Position numbers and translations under genes: made by a program. DNA of 64,000 nucleotides from contig NC_134961.1 in NCBI RefSeq assembly GCF_965638725.1, positions 3,906,001 through 3,970,000 on the forward strand, written 5' to 3'. The notes beneath the pieces were generated by a model, which did not search any database, had not been told where the DNA came from, and saw only the letters and a program-made list of their open reading frames with translations. This DNA is from Aptenodytes patagonicus. Its lineage: Eukaryota > Chordata > Aves > Sphenisciformes > Spheniscidae. Positions 8,113 through 57,965 of the stretch are shown piece by piece (the stretch's first letter is position 1; every line of letters starts with the position of its first letter).

Positions 8113-11100
8113 CTGCATAAAAGGACATACAGGGAGAGAGGGGGGGGGGGAGAGAGAGAGAGAGAGAGGATAGTATCATCAGGTTTGAGGTTCCACAGAA
8201 ATGACCAAAGTTCTTATGCTTTTAGAGGCAAAGTCAAACTCCAAAATCACTGAATCCTCCAAAATAGCAGGATATGAGATGCTGTTATTACCAGACGCAG
8301 GCAGCTGCAGGAGAACTGACTCAATTAATTGAAAATAATTAGCTCTGAGAGGTTTGCATGGCTTTGCAGTTTTCTCTGTGCTGCAAAGAATGCCGCTGCC
8401 CATAGCAGCATTCCTTCGTGCATCAGCCAGAGGTCTCCTCCCAAATGTCCCATGCCCTATTGTCTTGGGCACTGCTTCTTTCAGGAAGGATGGTCCGCTT
8501 CTCCCCGTGTGCTGCATCTGCACCCAACAAACACACAGCCCTGCTCTGCCACTTCCCTCACCTCAGTTTCCTGGGAACAGGGTCAGAGCAAGGCTTCTCC
8601 TGACCTTCTGTATGCAACCATGCCCCAGACCAGCCTTTTCTCACAGTGACAAGAAGGAAGCAGGGGTAGGGAGGGGATGGGGACCTCAAAGAGCTGTAGC
8701 CTGCTGCAGATAACACTTACTTAGATGATTAGGGAGTGCCACACATTGAATCTTGCCCTTCTGTATCACCATTAGTATTCCATTCTGCCCTGTGCCATGC
8801 CTTATCTCTAGATCACGAGCCCCTTACATTCAGCCACATCTGGGAGTAAAGGCACCTCTGGGTTTCTCTGATCTAAGAACAAAGTAAAAGTTTGTTCTTT
8901 TTGAAGAAGTCACTGAATACAACACTCAGATCACAGCAAACCTTAGGCATGTGCCACTAATGAATGCCAGTGAGTCCTACTAGAGGATTCTGCAGTCCAG
9001 AGGCTAGACACAGCACAGACTCAAGACTTGGTTCTGCTCCCTGTCCGACACTTGCCTAAGGGCTGAGCTGCGTCAAGGCTCTTCTAAGTGCACCACTTTC
9101 TGCTGTGTATAAAATAGGTAACAATGCTGAGCTTCATAAACACTGTGAAGGCTTCTGACAGAGTGCTGCATGATCACTGGGTGTTGCCACAGCTGTGAGA
9201 CTGCCTTAATCATATCAGCCTCCTGTCCGAAACTGCACTCAGCATAACTAGACATGAGCAAAGTACTTGGGAAGAGAACAGCTTGATGCAGCTTATTACC
9301 CTCTGACACAGAGCATGGAAAAATCTTCATTACAGCAGGAAGCACCAAGTCTATTTTAATTTATTTTTAACCTAAGCTACAAAGAGCTTATTAAAGTTGT
9401 AATGGACAGTGTCCTGGTTTCGGCAGGGATAGAGTTAATTTCCTTCCTAGTGGCTGGTACAGTGCTGTGTTTTGGATTTAGGGTGAGAACAATGTTGATA
9501 ACACACCGATGTTTTAGTTGTTGCTAGGTAGTGTTTACACTAGTCAAGGACTTTTTAGCTTCCCATGCTCTACTGACTGAACAGGCTGGAGGTGCACAAG
9601 AAGCTGGGAGGGGGCACAGCCAGGACAGCTGACCGAAACTGGCCAAAGGGATATTCCATACCATGTGACGTCATGCTCAGTATATAAAGCTGGGGGAAGA
9701 AGAAGGAAGGGGGGGACGTTTGGAGTGATGGCGTTTGTCTTCCCAAGTAACCGTTACGCGTGATGGAGCCCTGCTTTCCTGGAGATGGCTGAACACCTGC
9801 CTGCCCATGGGAAGTAGTGAATGAATTCCTTGTTCTGCTTTGCTTGCGTGTGTGGCTTTTGCTTTACCTATTAAACTGCCTTTATCTCAACCCATGAGTT
9901 TTCTCACTTTTACCCTTCCGATTCTCTCCCCCATCCCACCGGGGGGGAGTGAGCGAGCGGCTGCGTGGTGCTTAGTTGCCGGCTGGGGTTAAACCACGAC
10001 AGACAGAAAGTCACTCAAGGTGCAAAAGGCTATTTGAAGAAACAGCAGGAAATCCCTTTCTTAGAACTGAGCAGGAAGAATATTTCCTATTCCCTTTTGA
10101 CAGTTCTTTGCAAATTCCTGCCCAACATGAATCTAAGGACCCATGTACACACAAGAGTAAACAATGTTCCTCTGCTTTCCCTTCTCTTTTTATGTCTTAA
10201 CTTTTCCTCTAACATTTTCACTGCTTCCTACCCAATTCAGGACTGTTGTCTGCAGAGCATTACTATTGTAATTTGCTGATCATTATTCACAGACATAACC
10301 TAACCACTTGCTTTGATGCAGACAGGATGCAGTTGAATAAGCCCTATATCAATTGGTTTCTTGCCAGCCAAAAATGACAAGTCTGTTCACATATTAGTGA
10401 TGTCACCACATCCTCTTGACATGTCCTGCCTGTACATCTTGTGCTGTGGCTGTGTGGGCAACTGCTGCTTTAATCTGCAAATTTATTAAGTTACTCAAGC
10501 TTTAGCAACTGAGGCTCACTCCCTTCCCAGCAGCACTGAACAGCCTAACTAGAAACTAGGAAGAATTTAATTCCCACAGAATAGAGAACCCCATGGCTTT
10601 ACCCTGAGAAGAGCATGGCTCTTGGCATGCAGGGTGCTTTCACTTCCCCTGTGAGCACTTGCCCGTGACTCTCAGGAATTCCCACATTGAGTCCACCTGG
10701 TCCTGGTTCCTCTTCCAGAGAGCAACCAGGGCCACCTGCCTCACAAGAGGATGCAAGTACACCTCTGGTACAGATATGGGAAGCCATAATGAGGCTGAAA
10801 GAGGAAGGCAGGAAGGGAGACAGTCACTGCAGGCTTCAGCTTGAATGGCACCCATCCAAGACTACTTGCTTAACCTAATTGCAAACATCAGCCATGCAGC
10901 AGTGGGAAAGTACCTGAAGATCATTAGGGCCCAGCTGCTGTCCCTCTGCCAGAGGGTCCAAGAAAAAGCAGAAACAAAAAGCAGACACTGAAGTATCTCT
11001 GATCAGTGCTGCTGTAACAACAGGAACTTGTTCAGAAAAAGGCAGTGATGTCTGCACTCATATGCTAGCACTTTTACAGTTTGATAATGGCATTGTGAGT

Positions 11101-14100: not shown

Positions 14101-17100
14101 TCACCAGTGTCCGTTTATCTTCATGGACAGCTTTAGTCCTCTGAGTCTGTGAATGATTAAATACCAAAACACTCAGGGCTGGAGTAACTGCTCCCACCTT
14201 ACCCTCACTGCTGCACAGTGAGGAGCCCTGCAAAGTAATCTCCTCTGCTTTCACGTTGTTTCTGCAAGGCCATGCTCTGGGTGGTCAATAGCTGCATGGG
14301 GCCCTGGGAGATCCTTCCATGCAGGACAACATGAGAAGCAAATGAACTATCAGCCTTCCCCACAGGGTCTAATACTTCTCAAACAGCTTCTGCTTCTCGA
14401 TTTTTTTTTTTTTTCAGTTTTGCCTGTTAGTCTAGGCAAGTAAAGAGACACCTTTTCCAAACCATGAAAACCCTTCTTCCACGCCAGTGGTCCTATCCTG
14501 GTTGTGCTGGCCTCCTCTTTGCTGGTACATCCTACTTGATGGTAAACTGACATCACTTACCTCCCAGGTGTCGGTCCTTCTTTTATAACGCAGCTGATAT
14601 TCCAGCTCCTCATTCAAGAAATAGAAAGGAGAGTTCTGGTAGATGGTTTCCCAAGAAATATTGTAACCCTCTGAGAACACAGCAGTCAGATTGAACGGTG
14701 GCTGTGGTTTAACTGGAAGACAGGATGGTGTTACCCTTCATAACGTTACTGCAGACAAGAGGTGGCCCAGCATGGTGTCAGCAATGCCGAGCAAGTAGGG
14801 AGCAAAACTGCCCTGGCAGGGGTGGTTCCTCCTACATAGGACAACATCCACAACATTTCTGCCTCTCAGGCTCAGCAGTCCTGAGCCATGCACAGAACCT
14901 CACACCTCAGCAGCATAGTGAAGTCAGGCCCACATTTCCCTGAATATGCCTTCTGCCTGTCTCTGAACCTCCTCATCACCGAAGGAGAAGATAAACACAA
15001 GGGGCTAATACCTCCTCGGAGATGTAAAGGGTAGAGCACCTTGTTCTTCTCATGACATAGAGGACTCCGTGTAATCATGGTCACTTGCAAAGTTAGGGAA
15101 ATACCCCTCAACATAACAGACATCAGGAAAAACTGAGGCTAGTGGACACTGCATAAACCCAGTGGAAATCCCCATGTTGTAAGTGCCTAAAAGGCAAGCT
15201 TTTGTATCCCCTGCAGGGTGTTTTCATATATCGAAAAGCAGTAATGCACAAAGTCCAGCCCTAGTCTGCAGAGTCTGTCACTGAGCTATGATGCCTCTGT
15301 ATGGGGACATCTAGGAGACATGCAAAGCACCACTATCCAATCTATAGCCTGTCAGTGGGGGCAAGACACCTTCCTGAAATGTTATGGCATTTATCAAAAA
15401 GATGACACTTCTCATGTAAAGTTTAATTTCAGAAGAATCCAGGTAGAAAAATCCTTTTTCATATGCTTGCATGGTACCTGTCTGCCTGGCTAACCACCCC
15501 TTTTCTTCAGTTTGCTGCACAACACAGAACACACCAGCATTCCACCAAGTCAACTGTATGATTGCACCCAGTCTTCCTGCCATGCAGAAGAGATGGTTAG
15601 GAATTGCCCCAGAAAGGGGAAGTGCCACCTTTACTGTGTCTAGGACACCTTGTGCCACCCATAATAATGTCATGTTGGTTCAGGTGTCCACTGCAAGAGC
15701 CTCCTGGGACTCCTGTGAGGACGTTTGTGGCATTTGCAATTAAAGCAGTTCCCTCTGCCCTTTAGATTCTAGCCAAGAACAGACACTTGCATAGTCTAGG
15801 TATGAGACTGGTCTAAGGTGGAAATTTATCACCTACTGCTTCATGAGGAAAAGGAGTTTCCCCATGAAGAGGCTGAGGCCAAGCCAGCTGTAAACTCAGC
15901 CTCAAGCATAAATGTTTCTGTAGTTTACAATGGCAACGTCTACACAGACCACTGTGCTCTTATTGAGTGCACACCAAACATAGCCCCGCACCACTGGCTG
16001 CCATGCCCACTCCTTGCCCAGACTATCCTAGCAGTTAGACATAAGGTCAGACAGTATTTATCAAATCCACTATTTTTGTACTTACTGTTCTCTGCCATAT
16101 AAAAGCCTTTGGAAATCACATGCCGCCTATCAGCTATCTCTGTAACATTCACCCAGACTTTGATATCTGCCAGGAGTTCAGTCATGTCCACAGTGCACGT
16201 GTACTGTGTGTGACTAGTGTTCCTGGACAGTTGCAGGAGACTGCAGGCAGCCACAGTATTTTCTGGATCTTCCTCAGGAACCCTAAAACCACCAAAACAA
16301 ACAAACAAGTCCACATCTACCACATGCTGTAGTTGGACTAATTTGTTGCTGAACCACCAGGCATAGAAAAAAGAAGGCAACATGTTCAAATCAAAATTTA
16401 TCTTTGAACTTTGACAGATTTTTTTTGTCCTTCTAAGCATCTTTAAGGAGGAAAGTGATGCTGAAGTGTTTGTGGAAAGCAAAGGTGCCTGCCAGGGCTG
16501 CACAGCCCAGGACTGCACCCACTTTCTTGCTGGGGCAGAACAGCAGCCATACGGGGCTTGGACAAGCTGCCTGAGCCCTGCCAACACACTCAAGTGAAAG
16601 TCCATTGTTAACAGCAGCAAAGGGCAAAGTATTCCCAGGGCAGGAGAGAAAACAATGCCAAGGAAGCCAGAGTCAGTGTAGCAGTCAGTGGCAAGCAGTA
16701 CAGTCAGTGGACACAGAAACCAGGGATCCTTTGCTACGGGAGAAACCAGTTGATAACTGGAGTGTGAGGTACCAAGTAAAAACCAGCATGGCAGCAAGAA
16801 CAAGAATTCTACCTAACAAAGAGGACAGGACACCACTGTGTTATGGCCATGTTAGAAGTTCCTGCTGACTGTACTTTGCTTATCCTACTGAGACATACCA
16901 TGTTGCAGTGAGGTTATATGAACTGGCACCCAAGTCATTTCTCAGGATACAGGACAGGGTCTGTACATAGTCCACAAAGCAAGTGAGGTTTTCACAACAC
17001 GTAGCTGTAGGTTTGGAAAGAGAAAACACAATATCAAGCTTCCATGATGAAGCAAGCAGAACTTTATATCAACATACACAGTCCTCAGGGCTCCCACTAA

Positions 17101-21435: not shown

Positions 21436-22215
21436 TCACAGAATCATAGAATGGTTTGGGTTGGAAGGAACCTTTAAAGGTCATCTAGTCCAACTCCCCT
21501 GCAATAAGCAGGGACATCTTCAACTACATCAGGTTGCTCAGAGCCCCATCCAACCTCCAGGGGTGGGGCATCCACCACCTCTCTGGGCAGCCTGTTCCAG
21601 TGTTTCACCACCCTCAGCGTAAAAAAAAAAATCTCACCATCCTCATTGTAAAAAATTTCTTCCTTATATCGGTCTGAATCTACCCTCTCTTAGTTTAAAA
21701 CCATTACCCCTTGTCCTATTGCAACAGGCCCTGCTAAAAAGTCTGTCCCCATCTTTCTTATAAGCCCCCTTTAAGTATTGAAAGGCTGCAATAAGATCTC
21801 CCCAGAGCCTTCTCTTCTCCAGGCTGAACAACCCCAACTCTCTCAGCCTTTCTTCATAGGAGAGGTGTTCCATCCCCCTGATCATTTTCGTGGCCCTCCT
21901 CTGGACCCACTCCAACAGGTCTGTGTCTTTCTTATGCTGAGGGCTCCAGAGCTGAACACAGTACTGCAGGGGGGTCTCACCAGAGCAGAGGGGCATAATC
22001 ACCTCCCTCGACCTGCTGGCCACGCTGCTTTGGATGCAGCCCAGGATACGATTGGCCTTCTGGGCTGCGAGCGCACATTGCTGGCTCATGTCCGGCTTTT
22101 CATCCACCAGTACCCCCAAGTCCTTCTCAGCAGGGCTGCTCTCAATCTCTTCATCCCCCAGCCTGTATTGATACCAGGGGCTGCCCTGACCCAGGTGCAG
22201 GACCCAGGTCCTGGA
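21436..22215 (-). mobile_element. CR1 LINE 3' fragment
   Basis: The plus strand starts TCACAGAATCATAGAATGG, the reverse of the ATTCTATGATTCT tail of avian CR1. On the minus strand it encodes the C-terminal part of the CR1 reverse-transcriptase ORF, including [58 protein letters not shown] and RTRGNGFKL. It is 5'-truncated, as nearly all CR1 copies are. A local irregularity near the [13 protein letters not shown] segment and later frame breaks show it is dead. The 5' edge is approximate. Confidence 0.9.
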
Positions 22216-25200
22216 GTGCCTGTGCCTCCCCCCCCAGCAGCAGCAAACACCCATACAGTCACTCAGCAGAGAATGCCAGTGAGGCCTCTCCCACTTGGGG
22301 AACATTTGTGGTGTTTAAAAATTTCCCAGGTTTACTCAAATAATGAAAGCAAATTAAATTTAGCAGCCACCAAAAAGCCCCTGCAGCCCCACGTGAGCTC
22401 AGAGACTTGCTCTCAAGGCACCACAGTGTCCAGATGAGATCAGCAAGGCTCACTCAGGAGGTGCCACAAACACCTCATGGCTGCAGCACCTCAGCCCTGC
22501 AGTGGGAGCAGCCATGCTGCTGCTGCCCCTCCTTTCCTGCCAAACATACTGTGCAGATGAAGCACATGCTCCAACTCAGCAACGAGCCCCAGGCACCCTG
22601 CTCATCTCTCGCCTGCTGTGAGTGGCAAGACAGAAACTCTTTCCTCAGCCTCCATCCCTTCTTTCTGCATCACACATTTCCTTGAGGAAACACCTTTTCT
22701 TGACCCCTCTGGTCCCAGTTCTCCAAGTTTTCTCTGTATAATAACTATTGTCATTACCACTACTTCTGGTGGTGCAGACCCTGATTGCTAAGACACAGCC
22801 CACTATCTAACCCCACCTTGTGCTCCCACTTGTCATTCCACTGCTCTTCAAATTCTCATTCCTTTGAGGAAGGCACCCTGTTATCCTGCCACCTGAAACC
22901 TGCTCATCTGACTTCATGCTAAGACTGGCTGCACCATGAAAACAGACACCCTCAGGATGGTCAGTCTCCTGATGCTGATGCAGCATCTGCTTGTGACTCC
23001 CTAGCATCGAGGGCCCTGTTCCTTGCAACACATTTAATAGAAGAGCTGTGCCAAATGAACCAGCCACTGGGGCCCAGAGGCTACAAGCCCTACAGACATG
23101 ATACATGTCATTGTCCACTGCCTTTTAAAGTCATCCTTCTCCCTGCAAAATACCTAGAACCTATTGTTGCTGGGCTCAGAATATTCAGGGGTCCCCCAGC
23201 TTAGGATGCCAACAACCTGCCCAAATGGGCCTGTTCCCACCCTGAAAGAGTGCACAGTCCCCAGGACTGCTGTTGTTCTTCCTCAGGCCTTCATGACCTC
23301 TAACTGACTGTAACCCAGCACATGCTCTAGACTGCAGGACAGACTAGTGCCATCTAGTACTATGCCCTGCTGCAGAAGCCCATCTCAGCATCACTTTGCT
23401 TTGTGACTGTCACACTCCACAGTCTCAGCCACCCTATAAGGCCAAGAAAGGCAGCTTGCTGCCTCTTCTTCAGCAGAGGAAGGAAGCATTGGGCCCTCAG
23501 AGAGCTCTGCAGACCCTCTGCTTGTTTCAGAATCCAACTGGCAGTGCCCCCAATGTTTCACGTTCATGATATTTCTGTAGCTCCCTCATTTTACCCCCAT
23601 TCCTGCCTAAACGGACAGAGCAATGCAAGAGAAGTCTTTGCTACTTTTAGCTACTGGACCGTGGTTTCTTTAAAGTGCCTTCCCTATTTTCCTTCCTCTT
23701 CTCAGAGAATAGTACCATCAATCCAACGGGACAGGAAGGACTGAAAAGGAAAAAGTCAGAGCAACAAGCCCAAGTAGCTCATTGGGAAGATGTCTTATGG
23801 AGATATCAGAGGCTGCCATTACACACTGGAGAGAAGTTAACATACAAGGTTGTAATCTAGAAGGAAGCTTCCTGAGTAAGAGCACAGTAGCAAAAATAAG
23901 ACAGAAAAGCAGTAGGATCTGCTAACACAGGTGAAGCAAGGAGATGATACTTCTTCACTTGGGACTCCACTGTCCCATCTCTTACCCTTGCCAGTGCCCA
24001 CAGATTAGTCCAACACTTAATCTCCTTCACTTCTTACACAGTTCTACCTCAGCGTGGTGGGGAAGGACTCCTACCTCTGAGAGCACCATAGAAAGTGTCA
24101 GTGCTATGTGTGTCTGACCTCCTGGCTGTGCTCCAGGTTGCGATGACAGACATGGATGTGTGTGCAGAAGAGCTGGGAAAGATGCAGCTCTGCAGCAGTG
24201 TCTGTGATCTTTGATGGCTGGAAGACCTCACAGCTTTACAGAGAGATATAGCAGCCCCTGTTCTGAAGCTTCCTACAGTCAGGCCCTCTGCAAGCCTCAA
24301 TTCCAGTCTATGATTAAGACCCCCACCTTTCCTACATCCCTCCATTTGTTACACCCTTCCCATTTGCTGCCATCTGTCAGCACCCTGCTCACGTGATTGT
24401 TCACTTGGAAGGAAGAATGGCAGCAGGCAATGAGCGGAGGCAGGAACTTATTCCCTGTCTGGCATTAGAAAAATCCTTTCTACCACCTCAATTTCTCTGT
24501 CTGAAATGGGGACTCTGAGACAGCTTCATGCATCCTTGAAACCCAGTTACTCAGTTCTTATAAAGTGTCAAGCATTGTACAGCTGCTAAACACCATTGCT
24601 GCAAACTCTGTAATATCCTAGGGAACAGTGTGTGAGAGCACAGTAATAAAGTTGATTAACCATTCATATAGATGTGCACATGTAAATGGTGCTACAAGGT
24701 TTTAATATACCAGAGAATAGGAAATAGAACCAATACAGATGCAGACATTTACAAAGATTTTTGTTAAGTATCTGGAAATATGGTGCTATAAGCTGCCAAA
24801 GATGGATGCAGTCTAAACTCACAATTTGAAGTGTCTGCAGGAAATGTATGCACTTACAAAACTTCCACAAAAAAAGCCCAATTAAGAACTCAGTTTAAGT
24901 AAAATAAAAACCCCTGGTATTTCCAAGCATGAGAAAATAAATTTCATAGCTACACCCAAGCAAAAAAGAGTGGAAGTCTCTCAGTCCATCAGTTATGTGC
25001 AAAACCAAGATTTCTTCTTGAAAAAAAATTCATTATCAATGTACACTGCCATCTAATCACAAAGTTAAAGCAACAGGGAGACAGAAGGATCCTCTAGCTG
25101 TCCAGTAGAGGCCAACAGCAATGACAGCAGGGGCACAAGGGCCACGTCAGCTATAGCAAAGATTTGTAGCGAAGTCAGATATCAAGCAGTAACAAACCAA

Positions 25201-37145: not shown

Positions 37146-39375
37146 CTAGGCTACCTTCATGTAGCAGTTGTCCTCCTGTGCAAAGGCTTGTACAAGTTTC
37201 ATTTTTTTCTCATTCTTCCTGTTGTTTTCCCTCAATAGTTCTACTGGTCTTTTTTTAAATGCAGGTGCCAGTCTGGAACCCTCACTGTGAATGGTGTGAG
37301 AATCAGGAGGACAGGAACTATCCACAAAAAGAGGACGTGACAACTTGTCTGAGACCAGGAGCTCTGCAGTTTTTCTTTCTAAGTTTAGCCCAATGCTGTC
37401 CAGCGATTCTTCTGGTAAGCTAGTTGCTGAGCCACACCTCCTGCCTACGGCATGCTTTATCACCTCTTTATTTTCCCCTGCATTTCCAAGTTTCCCCAAG
37501 TGGTTGTGCATGTGGCGCTGAAAGTCAGTATTTAGTCTGTTACTGCTGCTCTCTTGCGTTCCTTTACCAGTATAGTTAAAGCTGTTAGGTTTTGTCCCCT
37601 TTATAGTTCTTTCTCTGTTGTTAAAATCTTGACAGTTCAGCTCTAACAAATGCAACAGCTGTTCGTCTCTGCTGGTATTTTCATCTTTGCTATCACTAGA
37701 CAGCTCATTAGAGTTGATGATCCAAAGGCTGCCATCACTGGTCTGCGTGACATTCTCACTAGAGGCTAAACCTGGGACAATGCTGCAGTCAAAACCCTGT
37801 AGAATCAAACATACATGGCCATCTGCCCTCTGGTCAGGTTCACAGATTATAGTATCTGGAGGTGTTTCTCTCAGGTTGTTGTACAAAAGATGAATGAAGG
37901 GTTCATATAGTGTCCTAGAGATAACCTCGCTGTCATTGTCACAGTATATACCATTACATTTAACTGCATTATCAAAAGGTTGATAACCAGATGGTTGAGG
38001 TCCAGTGGGGCAAGAAATTATATTGGCGTTCTTTTGAACATTTTGGTATGTTACTTGCTTATGCATTTCTTCCTCTGGTAGGAAAGCTGAAGCACTGTCA
38101 TTTGCATGTGCAGAGAAAGATGGAAAATCAGTATGTTCTGAACAGATGTTTTGAAAATCAAGCTCAGTGCAGGGAGATCTGTAGTTGGTATAACATGTCT
38201 GATTGCTAGGGGGTCGATAAATTTGATCTCTGCAGCTAAGTTCTGGCGTCTCTGAAAACTGTGTCAAAGGTGGTGAGGAGCACACATTTTCAAAACACAG
38301 AGTCAGGCTACTGTTAGCCATAGATGGAGACATAAAGGTATCAAAGCTCTTATATGCAGAGCTACTTGGTTCCTTGAATGCAGACACAAGAATATCAAAG
38401 CTCTTGTATGCAGAACCACAGGGCTCCACGGATGGAGACATAAGGGTGTCACAGCTCTTGTAGACAGAACCACAGGGCTCCACGGATGGAGACATAAGGG
38501 TGTCACAGCTCTTGTAGGCAGAACCACAGGGCTCCACGGATGGAGACATAAGGGTGTCAAAGCTCTTATATGCAGAGCTACACAGCCCCATGGATGGAGA
38601 CACAAGCGTATCAAAACTCTTGTGTGCAGGGTTGCTTATTCTGTCTTTTTTGGTCCCAAAGGATGGTTTATTTGGAGATTCTTGGATCAGGACACATGAG
38701 TCATGCTGACTTTCAGAACTGCATGGAAAAAGGCTTTGATGAACCACATGTTGAAGATCTCTTGCATCCAGAGAAGCAGAATTTATACTGGAGCTCTGAT
38801 AGCCAGATTCAAAGGATTCTTCTGATTGTTCTGACTTCTTGCTGGCTGTACTACAATTGTAGTCATCTTGAGAGGCTTTGGTGAAAAGGGAGTCACTATG
38901 AGAAATATCACATGGCTGCTGACTCTGGGCTGCGCTTTCTTTTGGATTTCGCTGTGACGGATTTGCTGACTCAAGTTTCTCAAATGTTTTATTCTCACCT
39001 GTGCTGATGTCTGGGTCTTTATTGTCTTGCACGTTGTTTTCATCTGCCAGGAGCTCAATAAACATGCTAGCTAGTGCATCATTGTGTTCAGTGTGCTCTC
39101 TGAAAGCAATGACACTGCTCTCACAAGGCTCAAACATGGTGATCTGGTCACTAGTCTCCTCCTGGCTCTCAGCCTCAATGTCTGTTAAACATTCACAGAT
39201 TTCTATAGACTCTTCAACCACAATTGTCTCCGGGGTTAAAACTGCACTGCTGCCTTTTGGAAACCACTCTTCAGACTTGCTGTGGCAACTGCAACATTTC
39301 TCAACATTTCTGATGTTATCTTTTCCCTTGAAGTTTTGGCTTGGCAAACTTTGAGCCAGACAGTTCTTGCAACTT
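37146..39375 (-). CDS. IL4R: IL4R last exon: cytoplasmic signalling tail
   Basis: 2230 nt, residues 293-1035 plus TAG stop. It begins SCKNCLAQSLPS (human HWKNCLTKLLPC). It carries an acidic patch, SMFIELLADENN, serine-rich stretches, the 18-residue tandem array, GYQPFDNAV (human GYQEFVHAV) and a C-terminal CYMKVA. The acceptor is ACTTCCAAAAACAG at 39376-39377, a rather weak pyrimidine tract. The tail of about 770 residues is some 200 longer than in human IL4R. Confidence 0.95.
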
Positions 39376-42300
39376 CTGTTTTTGGAAGTCAAAAGGAAAG
39401 GACAGTTAAAGTTTATATAATAGGAAACTATTTTATGCTGTAAAGCAGAGGGTTTTTTTTTCCCCTTTATCTTACTTACATTTGGTTTTCCATATGACTC
39501 TGCTTTAAGTCATGGAAAGGGAACTTAATTTCATCAATGTAGCACAAAACTGAAAACTAATAAAGATACAAATGAGATTTAGGACACGTGAATTGTATTT
39601 AGTATCCCCTGCACTAGCCAGACAATAGCACTTATTACATATTCTACTTCTGGTGATCAGGAAAAGGTATTTTTTGCAAAGCCTTTAAATTACCTTGACA
39701 TTTTTTACGACCAAATGGCTCTTTGCTGGATTTGGGATTTGATCCCACCATTCTTTCTTCACTCTGCAAGAGAAGAATTAAAATTGTTTGCTTTGACTGC
39801 ATTTTGGCTTCATCAGTGTACACTTCCCTCTTCTGTTCTTCTCTCCCTCTTAGCCATCTGCATTGCAGCAACAGGAAGCGCTTGTTCTGTGCATCTCCAA
39901 GTGCTGCTTTTCATTAAACTAGTGCAAAGATGTTTATATGTTTGGTGCGTGACTGCTCTGCACAACCACAGTCACGTGTTCTTCTAATCATGTTTGAAAT
40001 GATGTGCGAAACAGATAGGATCCCACTTTCACCTTACCACTAAAAAAATTTAAAAAGAAATACAGATATTTAACCATCATTACTGGAATTCCAGCAAAGA
40101 CTGGGGTTCAAAACTGACAAACCCCGTAACTGCAGCCTGTTTTGGATGCTGTAACAAGCCCATTCTAGTAAGATTAATAAAGAATATTCAGTTATCTATT
40201 CAGAAAATGACAGCGTGCAACTGACTTGAGTTTATAAAACGTTTGCTCCTAGAGAGTGAGATAAAGGTGCTGAGGAAAAATAAAACATTAGATTCCTGTA
40301 CTACTAGACATTCAGCTAATCAATAGCAATACTGGTATGTGTGCAAACTGCTACTCTATAAAACCTGTGGACAGTATGACACTTACTTGGTAAAACAGAA
40401 GTAACAAATTACAGATACTGCCATGATCAGTATGCAGGATACGGGAACAGCCATCTGCAGAACGTCTTCAGCTGTTACTTGGTAATCTGTTAAACAAACA
40501 TATACATTTACATGTGTATGTGCATATAAATACAAGTACTGGGCAATACCAAATTCATTGCTCTTCTTTTGCACCTTAAAAAAATGCTCCTTTAGAGGAT
40601 GTAAAATAAGGCCTCCAGCAGATAAACAACAGAACATACACAGCTACCAGTGGTGACGGTGTGTAGCATGTCTGAAAGGTCAATGCAGGTACTGCAGTCA
40701 GTTACTCTGAGTGTTAGGAGTTGGGAGAGCCAACATGTACTGTGAGGCCATTTGTCAGCTCTCGGGGACAAACCTGTCACACAGTCCCTAAAATGGCATT
40801 ATCATCTCCATTGTAGTGCAGCTATGCTTCTTGTCCTCTCCGTTGCTCTGCAGAGATTTTTATAAACCCTCAGCCCTCTGATGGTTAAAGTATTGCTTAA
40901 TTTGCAGCCTAAATATCTCTTGTTCATTTATATCCACTTGCTCTTACGTCAATGTTGTTCTTTAGTTTAAACATCTCTTCTCCTTCCCTGGTGTCTACTT
41001 CATGAAATATTTATAGAGAATAAACACATTCCCTTTCAGCCTTTTTTTCCCACAAGGCTAAACAACCCAACTTCCCTTGGTCTTCTCTTCCTCAGTTTCC
41101 CCAGGAGTTGCCTTTTTACATTTAGTCTCTTTGGAAGCCTTTACAGATGTATCCACAATATATTCAAAAGGATGAAGATGATGATTCCATAACTCTCCTC
41201 TGAGAGGAGAGCAGCGGGGTATATATGATATGGTTTATAAAAATATACCATACTTTTATCAAGCTGCTATTTGTTACAATACTTACCGTAGTGAAATTCA
41301 ACTTCTTCACTCCATTCACTCCAGTACGCCGGGTAGTCTGTATAGTTACACCTTACACTTGCAACGTAATCATAGCCTCTCCTCAAGGAGCTTGCAGTAA
41401 TTTCAAAGCTTTTTGCTTGGTAGTTAATTGCTTTTACAGAAATCTGAAAAGAAAGTGAGAAAGTTCACTTTGGCTTCTTTATGAGGTGAAAGGTTAGTGA
41501 CAGCAATTAAACAACAATAGTGTTATGTGTTTCAGCAACCTTTCACAAATGGGCAAATGAATGACTGTATACCTTATCCGCTGTGTGTGATACTGCATTT
41601 TGTTGTCATGAGCGGGTGGTATTTGTGACATGCCACCGTGCATGTTCATCCCCTACCAGAGGAAGCCCAGCCCTAAAGTGCTGGATTGTTCAGGAGGGTG
41701 TCTGAAATGCCTCAAGTGTGCCAGAGTCATGAACAGCCTCCAGCTTCCTGACGTCTAAGGAGCAAATGAAGTTCAGGGAACAGAAGCATTGTATTTTCAA
41801 TCTCTGCCCTGTCTACTGTGAGCAGCAGACCATTTTGGGGTGGCAGTCAGAAGAGTTTCAGTCCTTTAAAGCCCAGCTGAATCACTTTGGGACAATGTGA
41901 CCTGTGGCAAGCGTGTGATCAGGAACATTGTGTGACTTGCCCTTGCTTGGCCCTTACGCCATTATTCATGAAATGGTTTCAAGACTTTTCAGAGGACTTT
42001 TTAAACCTGAAAGCTCCAGAGAGACAGAAAAATCAAGAGACTGGCTGTCTCTTACCTCTGTCGGGTGCTGCTTCCTCCAGTATTTCACTTCATAGATGAC
42101 CGGCTGTCCAGAGAGCATGGATGGAGGAGAGTAGCTCTCCTCCCAGCTCAGATTGAAATTACCATTTTCAACTTTCTCAATAGCAAGATTTTTGGGGGCC
42201 CTTGGTTTAACTGTATGTTAAAAAATACAATTAAGGAGAACATGGCAATGGGAAAGCACTGAGAAGCAGAGACACAAACATTCACCAGAGACCAGAATCT

Positions 42301-45300
42301 CATCGCAGTCAATGCATTTAGCCCTTTTCACTATGCTGTAGCATGAGGATATAGAGGCCAAAACAGAGCATACAAGGTATTCATTAACAAGCACTGAATC
42401 TTCAAGCTGGCTGAACAAACTGCAAGGTCAACCTTTTGGTGCACTGGACGCAGCTTTCAGCCTGGAAAAATGGGAACAACCTGCACCCTCACAATAGCAT
42501 GCTGTGCCATGGGGTAGGCACAGAGCTTCTGACAACTTTGCAGCCAGGCTGTCCTGGCTACCTGTCTCTTAGAAACTGATGCAGGCTCCTGCTTATTCTG
42601 CTGATAAGTAGCAGCGGCAATCAAGTATTCTGAAAAGAACCAGCTCATTGATGCAGATGAATGCCCACCTAAGGTATGTGAATGATATTCTCTGAGTGTT
42701 TGAGGTGACAAGTGTTACGAACAAGCACACTGTTCTAAACAAAGTAGGTGCAAAATAGAGAGACATAAACTGTATCTATGCTCTGTCCTGTGAAAGAGCG
42801 GAGTCATTAACTTTTTATCACTGGTTGTTATAATCCAACAGCAATTACTGTAAAAATCTCTGTTCAGGGGGATGATTCAACTAGCATGAAAAATCAGAGT
42901 ATGACAGAGACAGGAATGGAAGAAATTTCAGTACGGATAGCCTAGTATCTTTCTAGAAACTGGAAGTAGCACATTCCTCTTCATCCTTGAATTCTACTGC
43001 CACAAGTAAAATGCACGTCTAAGCCCCCAAACTGCTGCTGTCTGGCAGCTGAGAGGGTACAGCTAGAGGAAGAATCACTCTCTGCTTGCCCCATTACTTA
43101 TACTCTTTCCTTAAGAATCTACTCCAGAATCAGGTTTCTAAGCCAAATGGATTTTGCATTTAAGCCAGCATGGCACTTTTCACCTCTGGTAAGGAAAAAC
43201 TCTTCCAGTGAAATGAATGAGGAGTTAGTTAGGATTGCATAGCCTGGAACCAGATGTCCTGGTGACAAAGTAAACAGTTTCTTACCAACCAGGGCTGGTG
43301 TAACACTGTAATTCCACATATCAGTCCCATTGAACTGTAGAGCTAGTATATACGTGAGGCCTGATACAAAATAATCCGGATGTATTGTGCAAGCGCAGCT
43401 TAAACTGTCTTTTCCATTCTCAGGGACACACACACGATTTCTGAAAAACAGGCAGAAAATTATGTGATGTTTAGAGTGTGGCACACTATTTCTTGAAAAG
43501 GTGAAATCGAGCTTCCCAATGTGTAGAGCTAATCAAGTCTGAGGCAAACAAGCTCAGGTCCTAGAAACGTTTAGCCCAAACAAATCCAAACAAAAACTGA
43601 GCTCTCCCAAACAACACACCCTCCCCAAACACCCCTTGGATATCTGTATCACACAAATGAAAAACTTGACAGAAAGGCTAAGGATTGATCCCAACAGGAA
43701 AAATTAACACCCTTTGTCACACTTCAACATCTGAAGGAGCGGACTGACAGCTTGCTAGTACAGGAACGGTTTACTACAGTGTACATCTTTGGATGTCTGT
43801 GTGGAGAAATCATATGGAGAGGAACAGGAGAGTCCAGATGCATCTTCCTTTGTAGGAGATGACGACTGGCCCTGCTGCAGAACAGGGACAACAGTCTGTG
43901 CTTGAACAGAGTTAGACTGTACGCAGAGATAATCACCTGGGCTCCAGGGGAGAGTACCTTTGCTACAGACTGGTAAATTGGGTGAGATTTCTCCTGAAGG
44001 AGGTAAAATTTCTCGTGAAATGAAGGTTGGGTAAACTTATGAGAGCCCTACCACTCCTACAAGTAGGACTTGATCACTCCTCTGTACTAAGAGTGCAGAG
44101 AGGTCTGCAGAAGAGTAGACCACCAAACAGAGAGTGCTGTTAATTGCAGCAACCCATTTTCCTCCCGGCAAGAATAATAATCTGGATTACATTTTGTCCC
44201 ACACACCCACAGTAGAGGGAGGGAATCAAAGCTGATAATGGCTATAGGATATATGAAGTTCCAACAATGATAATGTAACACCTTATTAAACACTTACGGC
44301 AGAACAAAAAGTTCCTTCCAGTAGTAGAGCAGGAATTCTTTGGAGCAATTCGTTTGTGCAGGCACCTTCCAGTGACAAACCAGCTCTTTGTCATAGTCAC
44401 TGAAGCATGCAAATTCCTGTACATGTCCTGCAGCTATAACTAGGGAGAAGCAGCACACAATGAGAAGCAAGAGAATCAAAAGAATAAACTGGACTAAGCA
44501 GAAACATTAACTTTTCCATCTAAACAGAGTTACCAACCCCCTATAAATGAAGTGAAAGCATTGTTGTTTTTCGTGTTCTGGGTAAATGGAAAGAGATGCA
44601 TGTCACCAAACGTCTCCACCTTTCTGGAGACAACGTCTACGGTCTTGGAGAGGAAAAAGGTCTGCAGTAGTAATATTGAAATAGAAAGGCACAATTCATC
44701 CAACACAGTCTTCCAAGCATAGAAAATCTGATTCTGATAGCTCTATCTAAAACACATCAACATTTAATTATAAACCAGCATCATCCTATGTGTTAAATAC
44801 AAAAGCCAAAATGCAGATAATCAGAGTCAGACCAAGATCACTGCCTACAGGCATGTACTCGTGCTTTATCTACAATGGTTCTAAAGCTTCCCAAATGCAT
44901 GCTCTCTGCCTCCCAAGAGCAGTTCCCCATTGCCTAGAAGATCTTCCTGTCACAGGCTTTCTTCTAGTATGCACTTTTTCTTAATTTCACTCAGTATTTC
45001 CTGTTCTGTCTTTTACTTTTCATTGTTATGACAGTGTTCGGAGACCTGGAGAGACCGAGTCACATTGTTCCAGGCATTGAGAGGGTACAGAAAAGCCCAA
45101 AGTCTCTGCACTCCCAATGTTCGCCTTTACAATCTCTTTCACTGGCAGTATTTAAGAAAAAAATAGAAAACATCAGTCAAAATATCTTTGTTAGAATTGG
45201 AAAGGGAGATGGAATACACAATCCTCAGCATCACTTCCAGCCTCATTTTCCATTATTTCAATGCACTCCACATGACTGAAACAAGGAACAGAAGAGGAGG

Positions 45301-48300
45301 AGCTATGTGACAGTAAGGTCATGCTGTTATTAGGACTAACAGTGTGCCAAGCGTGGTACTGGAATGTGATAATTTCTAAATGAAGCAGTCAGAAATAGCT
45401 AATACTTTTATCATCCCAGACAATTCTTTGCCACCTTTGATGTTTCACTTCTCTGTTATTGGTAAAAATTAACAATATCTCCCTTTTCTTGCACAAGTTG
45501 TACAGATCTAAATACTTCTCTCCTGCTCTACATCTCAATTCGCTGTAAAAATTTAGAATAGCTTTGGCTGGTTTTTAGAATCCTATTAATTGATATTTTT
45601 CTGATAGTTTCCTAAGGGATTCTGCTAGAAGGTTTCCTGTGGCAATTATACAAGGGCCATATAAAGACACGATTTCATTTCTCTATAGTACGTACATAAT
45701 CTTGTTTACACGGCCCAGCACATTACTAACTCTCCATTCTTGTCATTTACATTGCAAATTCAAGATTAAGATGCCTACAATTCACATCCTGTAAGGTCTT
45801 TGTCCTTCAGCCACTGCTGCTTCACAGAGTTATTCTTTCCCATGGGTACCTAAGTTTCAGATTATTCCTCCCAAGCAAAACCTTTTGTTGTCAAAAATAC
45901 CTAATTTCATTTTATCCTTCCTACATTTCTACTTTTCTGTAGTCCACTTGTGTTATTTATTCTGACATAACTTCTGCATACTCTGATACAGTACCGTATC
46001 TACAAATGTAATAAACATGATGGTCAGATACGTTTTAGTGGACATGATACAGTACATACAATGGGATCTACCACCAGACCTTCTGGTACTTCAATAAAAA
46101 CCTGACTCAAAGAAACAACTGTTTAGTACTGTCAGTGTATGGCCTTTTACCCTCTTTAAAATCCACACATCACTTTCACTTGCCTTTCCAAAAGGCCTCC
46201 CACAAAACTTGACTACCAAGCAGTCCTGGATCACTTGAGCAAACTCAATAACCTTAGTGAGGCTCACTTATGCAAATGAGGATGTACGGCAATGTCAAGG
46301 AACCACTGAAAAATTCTGTAAAAATCATAATCTAAATTGTCTGGTATATTGACTGGTTATAAACCTAGAACTGACTGCAGCTCACAGTTTCATTAGTGTT
46401 CAAATATTTAGAAAATGTTTTGTTTTGTTTTAGTTACTAAGGCTAGATATTTATCTTGTAGATAAGAGCTATCACTCTCATATCCTTTCTGGGTGGCAGC
46501 ACCACATATAGTTCCCTTTTGTTCTGCATGGTCCCCAGTTCTTAAAAAAACCCCCAGGAATCATCAGAAGAGCAGCAAGTTAAAGATTAAACTTCTGCAA
46601 CACTGTAACAGTCACACTGCTCATTTATTTTAAAAGAACCATTATCTATTTATCCTGTTGCTGTTGTTTATATTTGGTTGCCATTTGTATTTTTGTTAGT
46701 TTCTTTTTTTTTCCACTTTAAGATGCATTTTTAAAAGAAGTACTAACATTTTAAGCCCTTTAAAGAATGTAATTATTTTTCAATGTGTTAATGATCTTAC
46801 TTTCAAGAATACTTCAATTAAATAAAGCTCTTCCTGCTGTGTTAAGCTATGATGATTAGCAGCTTTACTTTATCTTGCCTTTCAGCGTCCTCAAGTATTT
46901 TCAGAACTCTAAATTAGCTTCCGTATTCTTTTCCTGTGACCTTCTCCCTTTTCCACCTCTGGTACACCGTATTTTTTTTAAACCTCAGATATTTGAGAAT
47001 TTCCTTTTGAAACCACATACAGTACAGAGTTTGTTTTCAGTTCGTGTAGCTAAAAAGGGAACTGAAACATGGGATTTCTTTTTTAATCCTCAACTAGAAT
47101 ACCATGCTGAAGAAACTTAAAACATGTAGTTAACTCGGGGGGGGGGGATCTGTAAAATTAAACCTTGGTAAAGATCATTTACTGAAAATGTGGGACTACC
47201 TAGATCAGATGACCCAGCCAATGCATGCTTGCAAGCCTTGATCCTTCTCATTAATTCAAATTGCACTATTTCACAGTACATAAGAAAGTAGCTAATAAAC
47301 CTTCTTTTTTAGAGACAGGCTATTTTTAATTGTCTTTTAACTATTTTCGTTTGCTTTAAAAAAAAAAAAAAAGAAAACTAAAAAACTGTAGACTACTGTG
47401 GAACTACTTAATAACTACAGAAAGCAAAATGTAAGATTCTTTTTCCAGAGAATAAAAATGCATTGTTGGAAAACATGATTTTATATACCTAACTTTTCTT
47501 TATAATCAAATATCATAAAAGATACAAGGAAAAAAACATTTTCGTATTCAGCCCCTGCCAGTTGAACTTCAGAAAATAACCATCAGCTAACAAGCAGCAT
47601 TAAGACTTAACGCAGCTACACGTCCTGGCAGATCAAAAGAATGGTCTAGTGAAGAACACATAGGACATCACGTGGCAGTCACCTGCCCCTGCACAGGCAC
47701 AAGTCAGAGCACGTAATGTCTCACAGCAAGCGCCTGCAAAATTTGTTCAAATTCAGTCAACTACATTTTCCAACTTAGTAACTCTGCACACTTCAGAGAA
47801 CACAAATCGACAGATGCCCTTTAACAGTAGATCTACAGGCTCCATTTCATGAGCGTAGCTCCCTCAAGGTCCTGCATGGTGAACAGTGGCAGTTATGAAA
47901 ATAAGCAAATGAGAGACTAGTGCTTTCTCCTCTTATGGGGTTTCTACAGAGATGTTCCTGGGTTATTGCTGAGCACCTTGTTTGCAGCAAGGTGTCCAAC
48001 AGAGGTTAGATAATGGGGAAGCAGGGAGATGACTTTCCAAACCTCAGTTTCTCCTTCCTGCAAATTCCTATTTTTTCTTGCCCATATGGAAAAGGTCAAT
48101 AAAAAGAAAAAAATCTAAGAATTTATTCTAGTATTCTGATATTTCTGACATTTGAAGTTACACATTTTATATTAGTTAATTAATGGTAATAGTGTTGCCT
48201 ACTAGTCATGAGAAAATGCTGTCGATAAACACTTCAGTATAATAATTTAAAACATTGACAAACTTACCTTCATTTGTTGTATATGAAAAGAAAAGGATCC

Positions 48301-48346
48301 ACAGGGTATGCGGTGCAGCACTTGGGAGTCTTGCCATCATTGACAT
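37146..48346 (-). CDS. IL4R: Interleukin-4 receptor alpha chain (whole coding span, 9 coding exons)
   Basis: Type I cytokine receptor. By family knowledge it binds IL-4 with the common gamma chain, or IL-4/IL-13 with IL13RA1, and signals through JAK1 to STAT6 and IRS adaptors. Joined minus-strand exons: 48268-48346, 44298-44439, 43286-43440, 42056-42210, 41287-41443, 40387-40486, 39694-39763, 39480-39499, 37146-39375. All junctions are GT/AG and in phase, giving 3108 nt and 1035 residues plus stop (human IL4R is 825). Layout: signal peptide about 1-26, D1 about 27-125, D2 about 126-229 with WSEWS at 218-222, membrane helix about 238-261, Box1 WWDQIPNP at 268-275, an acidic patch about 346-366, a conserved SMFIELLADENN (human SLFLDLLGEENG) at 396-407, a six-unit tandem repeat at about 543-650, GYQPF at Y757 (equivalent to human GYQEF), and a terminal CYMKVA with Y1031 (human TYMRVS). 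The extra length over human is all in the tail. Confidence 0.96.
38304..38627 (-). repeat. In-frame 54-bp tandem array in the IL4R tail (6 units)
   Basis: Six consecutive 54-bp units, each encoding 18 residues. Order from the N-terminal side: AHKSFDTLVSPSMGLCSS, AYKSFDTLMSPSVEPCGS, AYKSCDTLMSPSVEPCGS, VYKSCDTLMSPSVEPCGS, AYKSFDILVSAFKEPSSS, AYKSFDTFMSPSMANSS. The tyrosine-position residues are H544, Y562, Y580, Y598, Y616 and Y634. Units 3 and 4 are almost identical at the DNA level, so at least part of the expansion is recent. Unit 1 is preceded by N-P and so aligns with human NPAYRSF. Confidence 0.95.
39480..39499 (-). CDS. IL4R: IL4R 20-nt micro-exon
   Basis: Without this exon the Box1 exon (phase 0 out) and the last exon (phase 2 in) do not join in frame. 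The 20 nt between TTAAAGCAG and GTAAGTAAG encode SHMENQ plus two bases, restoring the frame into ISCKNCL (human CPHWKNCL). It takes the place of the longer human segment GSQWEKRSRGQEPAKCP. The donor is excellent; the acceptor is acceptable. It is a prediction from phase and splice sites, not proven. Confidence 0.82.
39694..39763 (-). CDS. IL4R: IL4R exon: JAK1-binding Box1
   Basis: 70 nt encoding VKKEWWDQIPNPAKSHLVV then KNVK. It is nearly identical to human IKKEWWDQIPNPARSRLVA. Acceptor TTCTCTTGCAG, donor AAG|GTAATT; phase 2 in, phase 0 out. Confidence 0.96.
40387..40486 (-). CDS. IL4R: IL4R exon: transmembrane helix
   Basis: 100 nt encoding (D)YQVTAEDVLQMAVPVSCILI then MAVSVICYFCFTK. It parallels human LLLGVSVSCIVILAVCLLCY. 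Acceptor TTTAACAG, donor CCAA|GTAAGT; phase 1 in, phase 2 out. Confidence 0.95.
40850..41110 (-). mobile_element. Old degenerate CR1-like remnant
   Basis: Plus-strand text such as AAGGCTAAACAACCCAACTT followed by CCTTGGTCTTCTCTTCCTCA strongly resembles the diverged minus-strand image of the CR1 'GLFSLEKRR' region. It lies in the IL4R intron between the WSEWS and transmembrane exons. Edges are approximate. Confidence 0.45.
41287..41443 (-). CDS. IL4R: IL4R exon: ectodomain D2 with WSEWS box
   Basis: 157 nt encoding residues 178-229: ISVKAINYQAKSFEITASSL and onward to RCNYTDYPAYWSEWSEEVEF. WSEWS is at 218-222, and RCNYT...YW parallels human AQCYNTTWSEWS. Acceptor CTTTTCAG, donor ACG|GTAAGT; phase 0 in, phase 1 out. 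Confidence 0.96.
42056..42210 (-). CDS. IL4R: IL4R exon: ectodomain D2, first half
   Basis: 155 nt that begins (V)KPRAPKNLAIEKVENGNF, matching human VKPRAPGNLTV at the start of domain 2, and ends YEVKYWRKQHPTE before GTAAGA. Phase 1 in, phase 0 out. Confidence 0.96.
43286..43440 (-). CDS. IL4R: IL4R exon: ectodomain D1, second half
   Basis: 155 nt. It opens NRVCVPENGKDSLSCACTIH, matching human HTCIPENNGGAGCVCHLLM, and continues through LTYILALQFNGTDMWNYSVT to PALV. Sequons NGT and NYS are present. Acceptor TTTTTCAG, donor TTG|GTAAGA; phase 2 in, phase 1 out. Confidence 0.95.
44298..44439 (-). CDS. IL4R: IL4R exon: ectodomain D1, first half
   Basis: 142 nt encoding (V)IAAGHVQEFACFSDYDKELV, then CHWKVPAQTNC and YYWKELFVLP. 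It corresponds to human QEPTCVSDYMSISTCEWKMN and the following LLYQLVFL segment. Both characteristic cysteines are present. Acceptor CTTCTCCCTAG, donor CC|GTAAGT; phase 1 in, phase 2 out. Confidence 0.93.
44440..48267 (-). other. IL4R: Large first coding intron of IL4R
   Basis: A 3.8-kb intron between the signal-peptide exon and D1. It is AT-rich. The stretch at about 45.6-46.5 kb has scattered phrases that look like very old CR1/LINE sequence, but I cannot delimit an element. No exon is evident inside. Confidence 0.45.
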
Positions 48347-56230: not shown

Positions 56231-56290
56231 TGATGTGCTCATTAGCTTTGGCCTTGTATGTGATGTGCTCATTAGCTTTGGCCTTGTATG
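56231..56290. repeat. Perfect 30-bp tandem duplication
   Basis: The 30-bp unit starting TGATGTGCTCATTAGCTTTG occurs twice in direct succession without mismatch. It lies in NSMCE1 intronic sequence. Perfect identity suggests a recent or polymorphic duplication. Confidence 0.9.
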
Positions 56291-57405
56291 TTTGACACAT
56301 GCTTGATTAATCCAGCAGTTTATCTTACAAGTATTTACAACAATAGTGCTGAAATTTCCAGAATGTTTTCCTTCATACTTACTTGGAAAGATTTCCTTTG
56401 GAATATAATATGAAGTGTATGCTGTTATCCATCTTGAGTAAATCTGTCACATCTGACTGATTACATGGTCAGCTGGTTAGTTTTAATATATGCTATACCA
56501 AGCTGAATTTTATGGCACACGTAACAAAAATTTGGTTGTATACTATCAAATCTGTCTGAAGTTCATGTTCAAACTTAAATAGTACAGAAACGTGTAATCA
56601 ACTTGATAAGGATTTTTTTCAGAGATCTGTATTTCATCTTCACTAATCTTGAAAATGTGGGCACAAACCAAAATAAAGCTGTAATGAGTGATGTGTTTAG
56701 CACTAATTAATCAGTAGGTATTAGATGTGTCAGTTGCTTGTTCCCAGAAAATAGTGAAAGAATAAAATACCTCTATTTTCATCTTTTCCTTATTTATGAA
56801 CAAAATTGAAAAGGACAAGGAAGGTGTAAGAACAAAAAGTGCCATTTAAAAGGAAACACCCAAATGCTGTTCAAATTAGTGGTTTTAAACCATTACTGTT
56901 GAAAGGCAGATAACTCCAGCAAATGTTGTTTAAATGACACATTCTGAGATCTAATACGCACTGAATATATGTCTCAAGTTATTTTCTAGTTCTCTAGTAT
57001 TTATGACTTTAAAAATAAAAGCCTTCTTAACAGTTATTTAGTTAGTCAGTTCAGGATATCTGTGTGAGTCTGTTGAGAGCTGAACCAATAAGTGCAGGGG
57101 AACTGAACTATTCAGTTGCTGGTGGCTAACTGGGACGGTAACTTTAGCATCACAATTGCTAACTATTCTTTCTCTCTGTTAAGAGAGAAGAGACTGTAGT
57201 CACTGATGCACACAATCTGTTGTGAACTCCTCTTGCTTTGTTGCCACAAGTGGAGTCCTTTCTGGGTGGTGGCACTTTTGATGTATTTTTCCTTAGTTAA
57301 AAGGAGTCAAGCAGACTCCATAGGTTTTCAAACTCTCTTGAGCCAAAAGAGCTTATTTCAGCATCTGCCCAAATTTCTGTCTGAAAAAAGTGGAAGTGTG
57401 GAAAA

Positions 57406-57965
57406 ATAGAATCATAGAATCATTAAGGTTGGAAAAGACCTTTAAGATCATCAAGTCCAACCGTCAACCCAACACCACCATCCCCACTCAACCATGTCCC
57501 TAAGCGCCTCGTCTACACGTCTTTTAAATACCTCCAGGGATGGGGACTCCACCACTTCCCTGGGCAGCCTGTTCCAATGTTTAACCACTCTTTCAGTAAA
57601 GAAATTTTTCCTCATGTCCAATCTAAACCTCCCCTGGCGCAACTTGAGGCCATTTCCTCTCGTCCTATCGCTAGTTACTTGGGAGAAGAGACCAACACCC
57701 ACCTCGCTACAACCTCCTTTCAGGGAGTTGTAGAGAGCGATGAGGTCTCCCCTCAGCCTCCTTTTCTCCAGGCTAAACAACCCCAGTTCCCTCAGCCGCT
57801 CCTCATCAGACTTGTTCTCCAGACCCCTCACCAGCCTCGTTGCCCTTCTCTGGACACGCTCCAGCACCTCCGATGTCCTTCTTGTAGTGAGGGGCCCAAA
57901 ACTGAACACAGTATTTGAGGTACGGCCTCACCAGGGCCGAGTAGAGGGGCACGATCGCTTCCCTA
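57406..57965 (-). mobile_element. CR1 LINE 3' fragment
   Basis: The plus strand opens AATAGAATCATAGAATCATT, the reverse of the CR1 tail. The minus strand encodes [60 protein letters not shown] and [20 protein letters not shown], the C-terminus of the CR1 ORF2 protein. The frame is open over about 150 codons, so this copy is younger than the one at 21.4 kb. It is 5'-truncated; the right edge is approximate. It inserted in the NSMCE1 intron, antisense to the gene. Confidence 0.92.

Follow-up and report, generated by a model that had tools for sequence, protein, structure and literature searches.

The 64,000-nucleotide stretch of Aptenodytes patagonicus DNA analysed here (the window) carries an IL4R gene on its minus strand, in which no damage was visible. 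A tblastn search with the emperor penguin IL4R protein (P0001) gave nine matches, eight lying in the correct order at 39479-48346 and the ninth corresponding to the last exon (39374-37149). Exon ends displayed GT donors and, wherever the boundary was exact, AG acceptors, and the last exon lies in a frame that stays open from 39509 until its stop codon (37146-37148). P0001 matched the Pfam family IL4Ra_N at 6.7e-33, with fn3 slightly under its cut-off, and the WWDQIPNPA box (box 1) fell inside the P0001 match at 39694-39777. With the domain, the transmembrane segment and box 1 all in place, the gene is IL-4 receptor alpha.

39479-48346, minus strand: upstream IL4R exons, encoding the signal peptide, extracellular domain, transmembrane segment and box 1 (some boundaries approximate)
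37146-39374, minus strand: coding portion of the final IL4R exon, encoding the cytoplasmic tail (742 residues plus stop), with an acceptor AG immediately 5'

The tail was predicted to be disordered, as docking tails commonly are, with a pLDDT of about 30 over the repeat array described below (mean 33, 37 rows). No solved structure matched it up to an E-value of 10, and the sole Pfam match of the tail frame was DUF5074, below its cut-off. Two helices were predicted in the otherwise disordered tail, one at 39027-39116 (residues 87-116; block pLDDT up to 69) and one at 37152-37247 (residues 710-741; up to 75), both on the minus strand; the second adjoins a conserved C-terminal YMKVA. EESFESGYQSS (38775-38834, minus strand; tail residues 181-200) ranked with the most conserved segments of the tail; its ESGY was invariant across 37 aligned sequences, and it is not known to have a role.

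Elsewhere in the window, minus-strand reading frames at 7195-8175 and 15940-16812 resembled by eye the tail and an extracellular exon, respectively, of IL21R, a neighbour of IL4R; against Pfam these frames gave no match up to an E-value of 0.01. Frames at 21664-22314 and 57451-57927 (minus strand) looked by eye like remnants of CR1-type retroelements, and a 30-bp tandem repeat in two perfect copies was seen at 56231-56291.

The last exon of IL4R contains a tandem array of six units, reported by Tandem Repeats Finder at 38323-38629 (period 54, 5.7 copies, 84% matches, 0% indels, score 383).

38304-38627, minus strand: array of six 54-bp units of 18 residues each, head to tail and in frame
38574-38627, minus strand: unit 1, AHKSFDTLVSPSMGLCSS; NPAHKSF when preceding residues are included, with His in place of Tyr
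38520-38573, minus strand: unit 2, AYKSFDTLMSPSVEPCGS; AYKSF
38466-38519, minus strand: unit 3, AYKSCDTLMSPSVEPCGS; AYKSC
38412-38465, minus strand: unit 4, VYKSCDTLMSPSVEPCGS; VYKSC, present in two copies in P0001
38358-38411, minus strand: unit 5, AYKSFDILVSAFKEPSSS; AYKSF
38304-38357, minus strand: unit 6 (last), AYKSFDTFMSPSMANSSL; AYKSF

An earlier note on this DNA had described six in-frame 18-residue units in the IL4R tail, and repeat finding, the open frame and the P0001 exons bear this out. Its assignment of Tyr to five units, with Phe at +3 in units 2, 5 and 6 and Cys in units 3 and 4, was also correct, although its residue numbers run 19 below those of the P0001-based model, in which the tyrosines are 581, 599, 617, 635 and 653. 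Units 3 and 4 shared 53 of 54 bases, units 2 and 3 shared 51 and units 2 and 4 shared 50, with 36-42 identical bases in the remaining pairs. The emperor penguin receptor has seven units against six in the window, the additional one being another VYKSC unit; over the 631 residues of the tail that lie outside the array, the two proteins differ at a single position. Both observations uphold the earlier proposal that a tyrosine motif grew in tandem and are signs of recent unequal exchange.

A protein search with the tail returned 109 homologues from birds, crocodilians, turtles and the tuatara, in which units were called by a position matrix. In this count across bird and reptile tails, which the earlier note had proposed, 107 of the 109 had two units or more (range 2-17), the remaining two being short partial proteins; the array is therefore not a chance resemblance. 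Before counting by group we removed P0107 and P0108 (short partial proteins with no unit), the near-duplicate or isoform entries P0027 and P0034 from the birds, and P0099, a second Chelonia mydas entry. P0110-P0112 lay outside unit calling; P0110 has two units by eye. The 94 bird sequences (a count of sequences, not of species) had 3-12 units, most commonly 4 (37 of 94), followed by 6 (20) and 5 (14). Crocodilian arrays comprised 16, 17 and 11 units, the 11-unit model stopping soon after the array; the seven turtle entries had 2-4 and the tuatara 15. The step between units was 18 residues except for single steps of 15 in an alligator (P0097) and 13 in the turtle Carettochelys (P0105). Since S-Q-S and S-L-T occur in the last unit of birds and of turtles alike, we infer that their common ancestor had at least two units. 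The coding array is real, old and changeable, and it is not peculiar to the window.

Mammalian IL-4R alpha tails are described as carrying an I4R motif, NPXYXSXSD (human Y497), a docking point for IRS1/2, Shc and further partners, together with three STAT6 sites of the motif GYKxF (PMC5962649). The array units share features with both. As in the STAT6 sites described there, YK occupies positions 0/+1, and units 2, 5 and 6 complete the YKxF core with Phe at +3; the core is absent from units 3 and 4, which have Cys at +3. The array differs from those sites in its 18-residue tandem arrangement and in position -1, which is Ala or Val and never Gly in all five Tyr units. The likeness to the STAT6 motif drawn in the earlier note extends to the core in three of the five Tyr units and fails for the missing Gly. 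Because three of five have the core of GYKxF, STAT6 docking by these units is plausible as judged from the motif. With the I4R motif as described in PMC5962649 the array shares NPA-x-KSF in unit 1 and Ser at +2, and it may share its place in the tail. Unit 1 is the likely position of the I4R (NPxY) site, but NPxY with its Tyr is absent from the window array: unit 1 reads NPAH and units 2-6 are without NP. The I4R motif further differs from the sauropsid unit in that the latter is multiplied 2-17 times, has lost Tyr or NP in most birds, and is without NP in the internal units of birds and turtles.

To compare the units with mammalian sites, a pooled matrix of 434 distinct sauropsid units was slid along one database mammal (elephant, P0112) and along a human tail. 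The top position in elephant was the I4R site DNPTYRSLSTFLSQSPGSGEL at 15.9 bits, followed by GYKAF at 2.6; on the human tail the I4R site scored 13.4 and the best STAT6 site -8.3. The top score was not attained in any of 1,000 shuffles, whereas that of elephant GYKAF was attained in 0.2% (p 0.002). Sub-matrices split by lineage and unit position ranked the I4R site highest in 39 of 48 scans. Exceptions numbered nine: one each with turtle internal, bird internal and non-avian first units on elephant, five with crocodilian matrices, and one with the tuatara first unit on the human tail. All four crocodilian sub-matrix scans on elephant ranked a STAT6 site first, and the pooled crocodilian matrix gave GYKAFSSLL 9.5 against -5.3 for the I4R site.

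Two single-copy sites downstream of the array also bear on its origin.

38034-38048, minus strand: YQNVQ, a pYxN-type motif conserved in birds
37971-37985, minus strand: YQPFD of the GYQPF site, single copy
37893-37907, minus strand: YEPFI of the LYEPF site, single copy

GYQPF best matched elephant GYREF (p 0.005), and LYEPF best matched GYKPF (p 0.003 in elephant, p 0.081 in the human tail), so that sites follow one another in the same order in sauropsids and mammals. By these matches GYQPF is the likely counterpart of the mammalian STAT6 site Y575 (elephant Y577) and LYEPF that of Y603 or Y631, which leaves the I4R site for the array if order is kept. In birds, GYQPF has its Tyr in 88 of 93 sequences and Phe in 85, and LYEPF its Tyr in 68 of 88 and Phe in 55. 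In TYQNV, the remaining motif listed, Tyr is present in 89 of 93 birds and replaced, by eye, by Cys or Ser in the turtles and the alligator inspected. The pYxN type is that bound by the Grb2 SH2 domain, and TYQNV may be a bird gain offsetting the loss of NPxY considered below.

Alignments gave a mixed picture. With the array collapsed to one unit, hhalign agreed with the matrix in placing the unit on the I4R site and in the placement of GYQPF, and set the second downstream site on GYKAF. In stricter runs (24 settings) the confident part covered no more than the initial 138-154 columns and ended ahead of the array, which none of the 18 settings containing a unit reached; the extended alignment is consequently weak alone, and the matrix scans carry the point. 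Contrary to those scans, MAFFT of full-length proteins with elephant laid the array over the STAT6 sites. We weighed this less because tail lengths differ greatly and GYQPF and LYEPF then find no counterpart. A second protein search, aimed at mammals and lizards and limited to the segment between the extracellular domain's end and box 1, returned sauropsids exclusively.

The main competing origin is an expanded, GYKAF-like STAT6 site, with the sauropsid NPxY lost or located elsewhere. It would account for the MAFFT placement, the nine contrary scans with their crocodilian preference, and the second rank of elephant GYKAF in the pooled scan. It has to contend with the pooled matrix in both mammals, with the 39 scans led by I4R, with the pairing of both downstream sites, and with NPAYKSF in crocodilian and tuatara arrays, and we regard it as rather unlikely. 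The claim of the earlier note that the array is a run of GYxxF STAT6 sites was accordingly not sustained: the unit matrix prefers mammalian I4R, and the STAT6-like sites stand singly downstream. Its statement that mammalian STAT6 sites are spaced apart is true of elephant (577, 605 and 633), but at exactly 28 residues the spacing is not irregular. Beyond the motif, the three elephant sites (P0112 residues 575-660) are weakly similar (summed p 0.0086), with a p of 0.85 for the third pair in a tandem test; an old 28-residue tandem triplication of the mammalian sites is suggestive only. For the array itself, growth from the I4R (IRS) site rather than from the STAT6 sites is probable from these comparisons, the nine contrary scans and the few changes in NPxY state described next having slightly lowered our estimate.

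The array tyrosines and the NPxY site have fared differently in birds. The Tyr position of unit 1 was occupied by Y in 26, H in 30, D in 22 and other residues in 16 of the 94 sequences, while Tyr was retained in 317 of 322 internal and 92 of 94 last units, where YKSF and YKSC were the prevailing forms. At +3, Phe was present in 93 of 94 last units and Cys in 99 of 322 internal units. Changes were placed by parsimony on a FastTree tree of the protein without the array (103 rows; window and tuatara P0109 excluded) and compared with 484 four-column windows of the tail. N, P, x and Y of unit 1 changed 11, 20, 9 and 20 times, a sum of 60 reached by 0.6% of windows; two further unit-1 columns also showed 20 changes. 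Y, K, S and F of the last unit changed 2, 5, 0 and 1 times (sum 8), among the slowest 5.6% of windows and hence slow, yet not extreme. For YKSF of the second unit the values were 1, 1, 2 and 12, an unremarkable rate within the slowest 17%. Scored as yes/no traits on the bird tree, unit-1 Tyr changed seven times, last-unit Tyr twice and intact NPxY twice, so that sequence counts overstate the number of independent events. The loss of NPxY may therefore consist of few old events followed by drift.

NPxY was found anywhere in the tail in 5 of 94 birds (one New World vulture and four ducks) and in none of the other 89. The seven turtle arrays contained none and the tuatara array two. Every bird array had at least one Y-x-x-F (range 1-11). 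In the crocodilians P0097, P0098 and P0106 we observed 6, 13 and 8 NPxY motifs in the arrays, whose units often read NPAYKSF or NPDYKSF and so combine a PTB-type and a YKxF-type core within one unit.

Retention of this kind could arise in a neutral coding minisatellite, gaining and losing units by slippage in a disordered tail and copying Tyr by homogenisation, with no docking role. Unit number has indeed changed at least 45 times on the tree among the 94 bird sequences, the region is predicted to be disordered, 39 of 416 adjacent bird unit pairs (in 23 of 94 sequences) are identical in protein, and YKSF of the second unit ranks no better than the slowest 17% of the tail. Against this, the last unit, which is unlike the rest, holds its Tyr and its +3 Phe almost throughout and has one of the slower cores of the tail, while the unit-1 Tyr, in a similar setting, has been replaced in 68 of 94. 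Homogenisation is also modest: for just 113 of 319 internal units was the match within the same array equal to or better than the closest unit found in any other sequence. It may explain part of the retention of internal Tyr but is unsupported as its sole cause, and we consider the neutral account unlikely.

Part of the variation in unit number might instead be assembly error, as units up to 53/54 identical are prone to collapse. Equal numbers were found in five of seven listed pairs at or above 97.6% identity. Gallus P0063 has six units and the 99.1% identical P0072 has three; P0072 lies on a 5949-base contig and its count possibly results from collapse. Numbers differ on contigs of more than 10 megabases too, however (11 units in P0002, 6 in P0010), and unit sequences differ between lineages, which makes this explanation quite improbable. 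That the units are endocytosis signals whose copy number sets receptor turnover is very unlikely: YKSF conforms to YxxPhi, the signal read by AP-2, but YKSC, by its +3 Cys accounting for 99 of 322 internal bird units, does not.

Starting from the observed array, its variation in number, the retained Tyr, the lost NPxY and the predicted disorder, we lean, by a small measure, towards a mechanism in which a coding minisatellite turned a PTB-type (IRS) site into a multivalent SH2-type YKxF array in a disordered tail. Unequal exchange or slippage would have multiplied a 54-bp unit, probably at the single I4R position, in the sauropsid receptor, the reading frame being kept because multiplication went by whole units. 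The first unit of birds has since lost its NPxY by decay, the other units mostly staying Y-K-S-F or Y-K-S-C, so that the tail would have exchanged its PTB-type site for 2-11 SH2-type tyrosines in a disordered stretch. These tyrosines would most likely be phosphorylated by the JAK kinases of the receptor, units with +3 Phe would dock STAT6 or a similar SH2 protein, and unit number would determine both the valency at this place and how output divides between STAT and IRS. The STAT6 SH2 pocket for pY+3 has been modelled with Phe, residues before the phosphotyrosine being described as mattering little (PMC3320567). YKSF should thus suit this pocket and YKSC, with Cys at +3, should fit it less well. 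Engineered receptors are reported to show that Shc is strictly NPXY-specific and that an IL-4R motif activates STAT6 almost specifically (PMC11685922). Given these specificities, PTB domains of this kind should not recognise the avian units, whereas STAT6 may do so.

STAT6 has a single SH2 domain where SHP2 has two, and any gain from multiple units in IL4R would therefore depend on partners that cluster or dimerise, or on higher local occupancy. In Helicobacter CagA, which likewise contains a variable number of copies of a phosphotyrosine segment (EPIYA-C), a change from one to two or more segments is reported to raise SHP2 binding over a hundredfold (PMC4623810). CagA differs in being a bacterial effector with another motif and partner, and we claim no evolutionary relation; what the IL4R array has in common with it is tandem in-frame Tyr units whose number varies between close relatives. 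The YxxP substrate domain of p130Cas, a disordered segment in which tyrosines that dock SH2 domains recur many times, offers a second parallel, but p130Cas is not a receptor and its repeats are not known to be head-to-tail units of varying number. Among the matches listed in our literature search, most subscription papers being outside its scope, there was no title on IL4R-tail repeats. Chicken IL4R has been reported to show balanced diversity (PMC3224688); the words repeat, tandem and insertion are absent from the main text of that paper.

Taken together, the array more likely originated from the IRS site, and a function for it is plausible from the motifs. More tentatively, and as a possibility we rate clearly below the mechanism above, sauropsid IL-4R alpha may be a heritable signalling rheostat. 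Its I4R-derived unit, varying in number between and within species, would tilt output between STAT6 and IRS by lineage and allele length, with the IRS/Shc site dismantled in most birds and in turtles, where a multivalent YKxF array would have taken its place, and with NPxY kept and multiplied in crocodilians. Should STAT6 or a different partner dock on the units, they would form a natural series of 2-11 array tyrosines in birds and up to 16 in crocodilians, which would let the relation of docking-site number to cytokine output be measured directly. The findings suggest that in most birds the IRS arm of IL-4 signalling, which has been studied thoroughly in mammals, is without its NPxY site, a loss that bears on applying mammalian type-2 immunity to poultry and wild birds. 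Length alleles of the array would add a novel type of candidate to those considered for immune variation.
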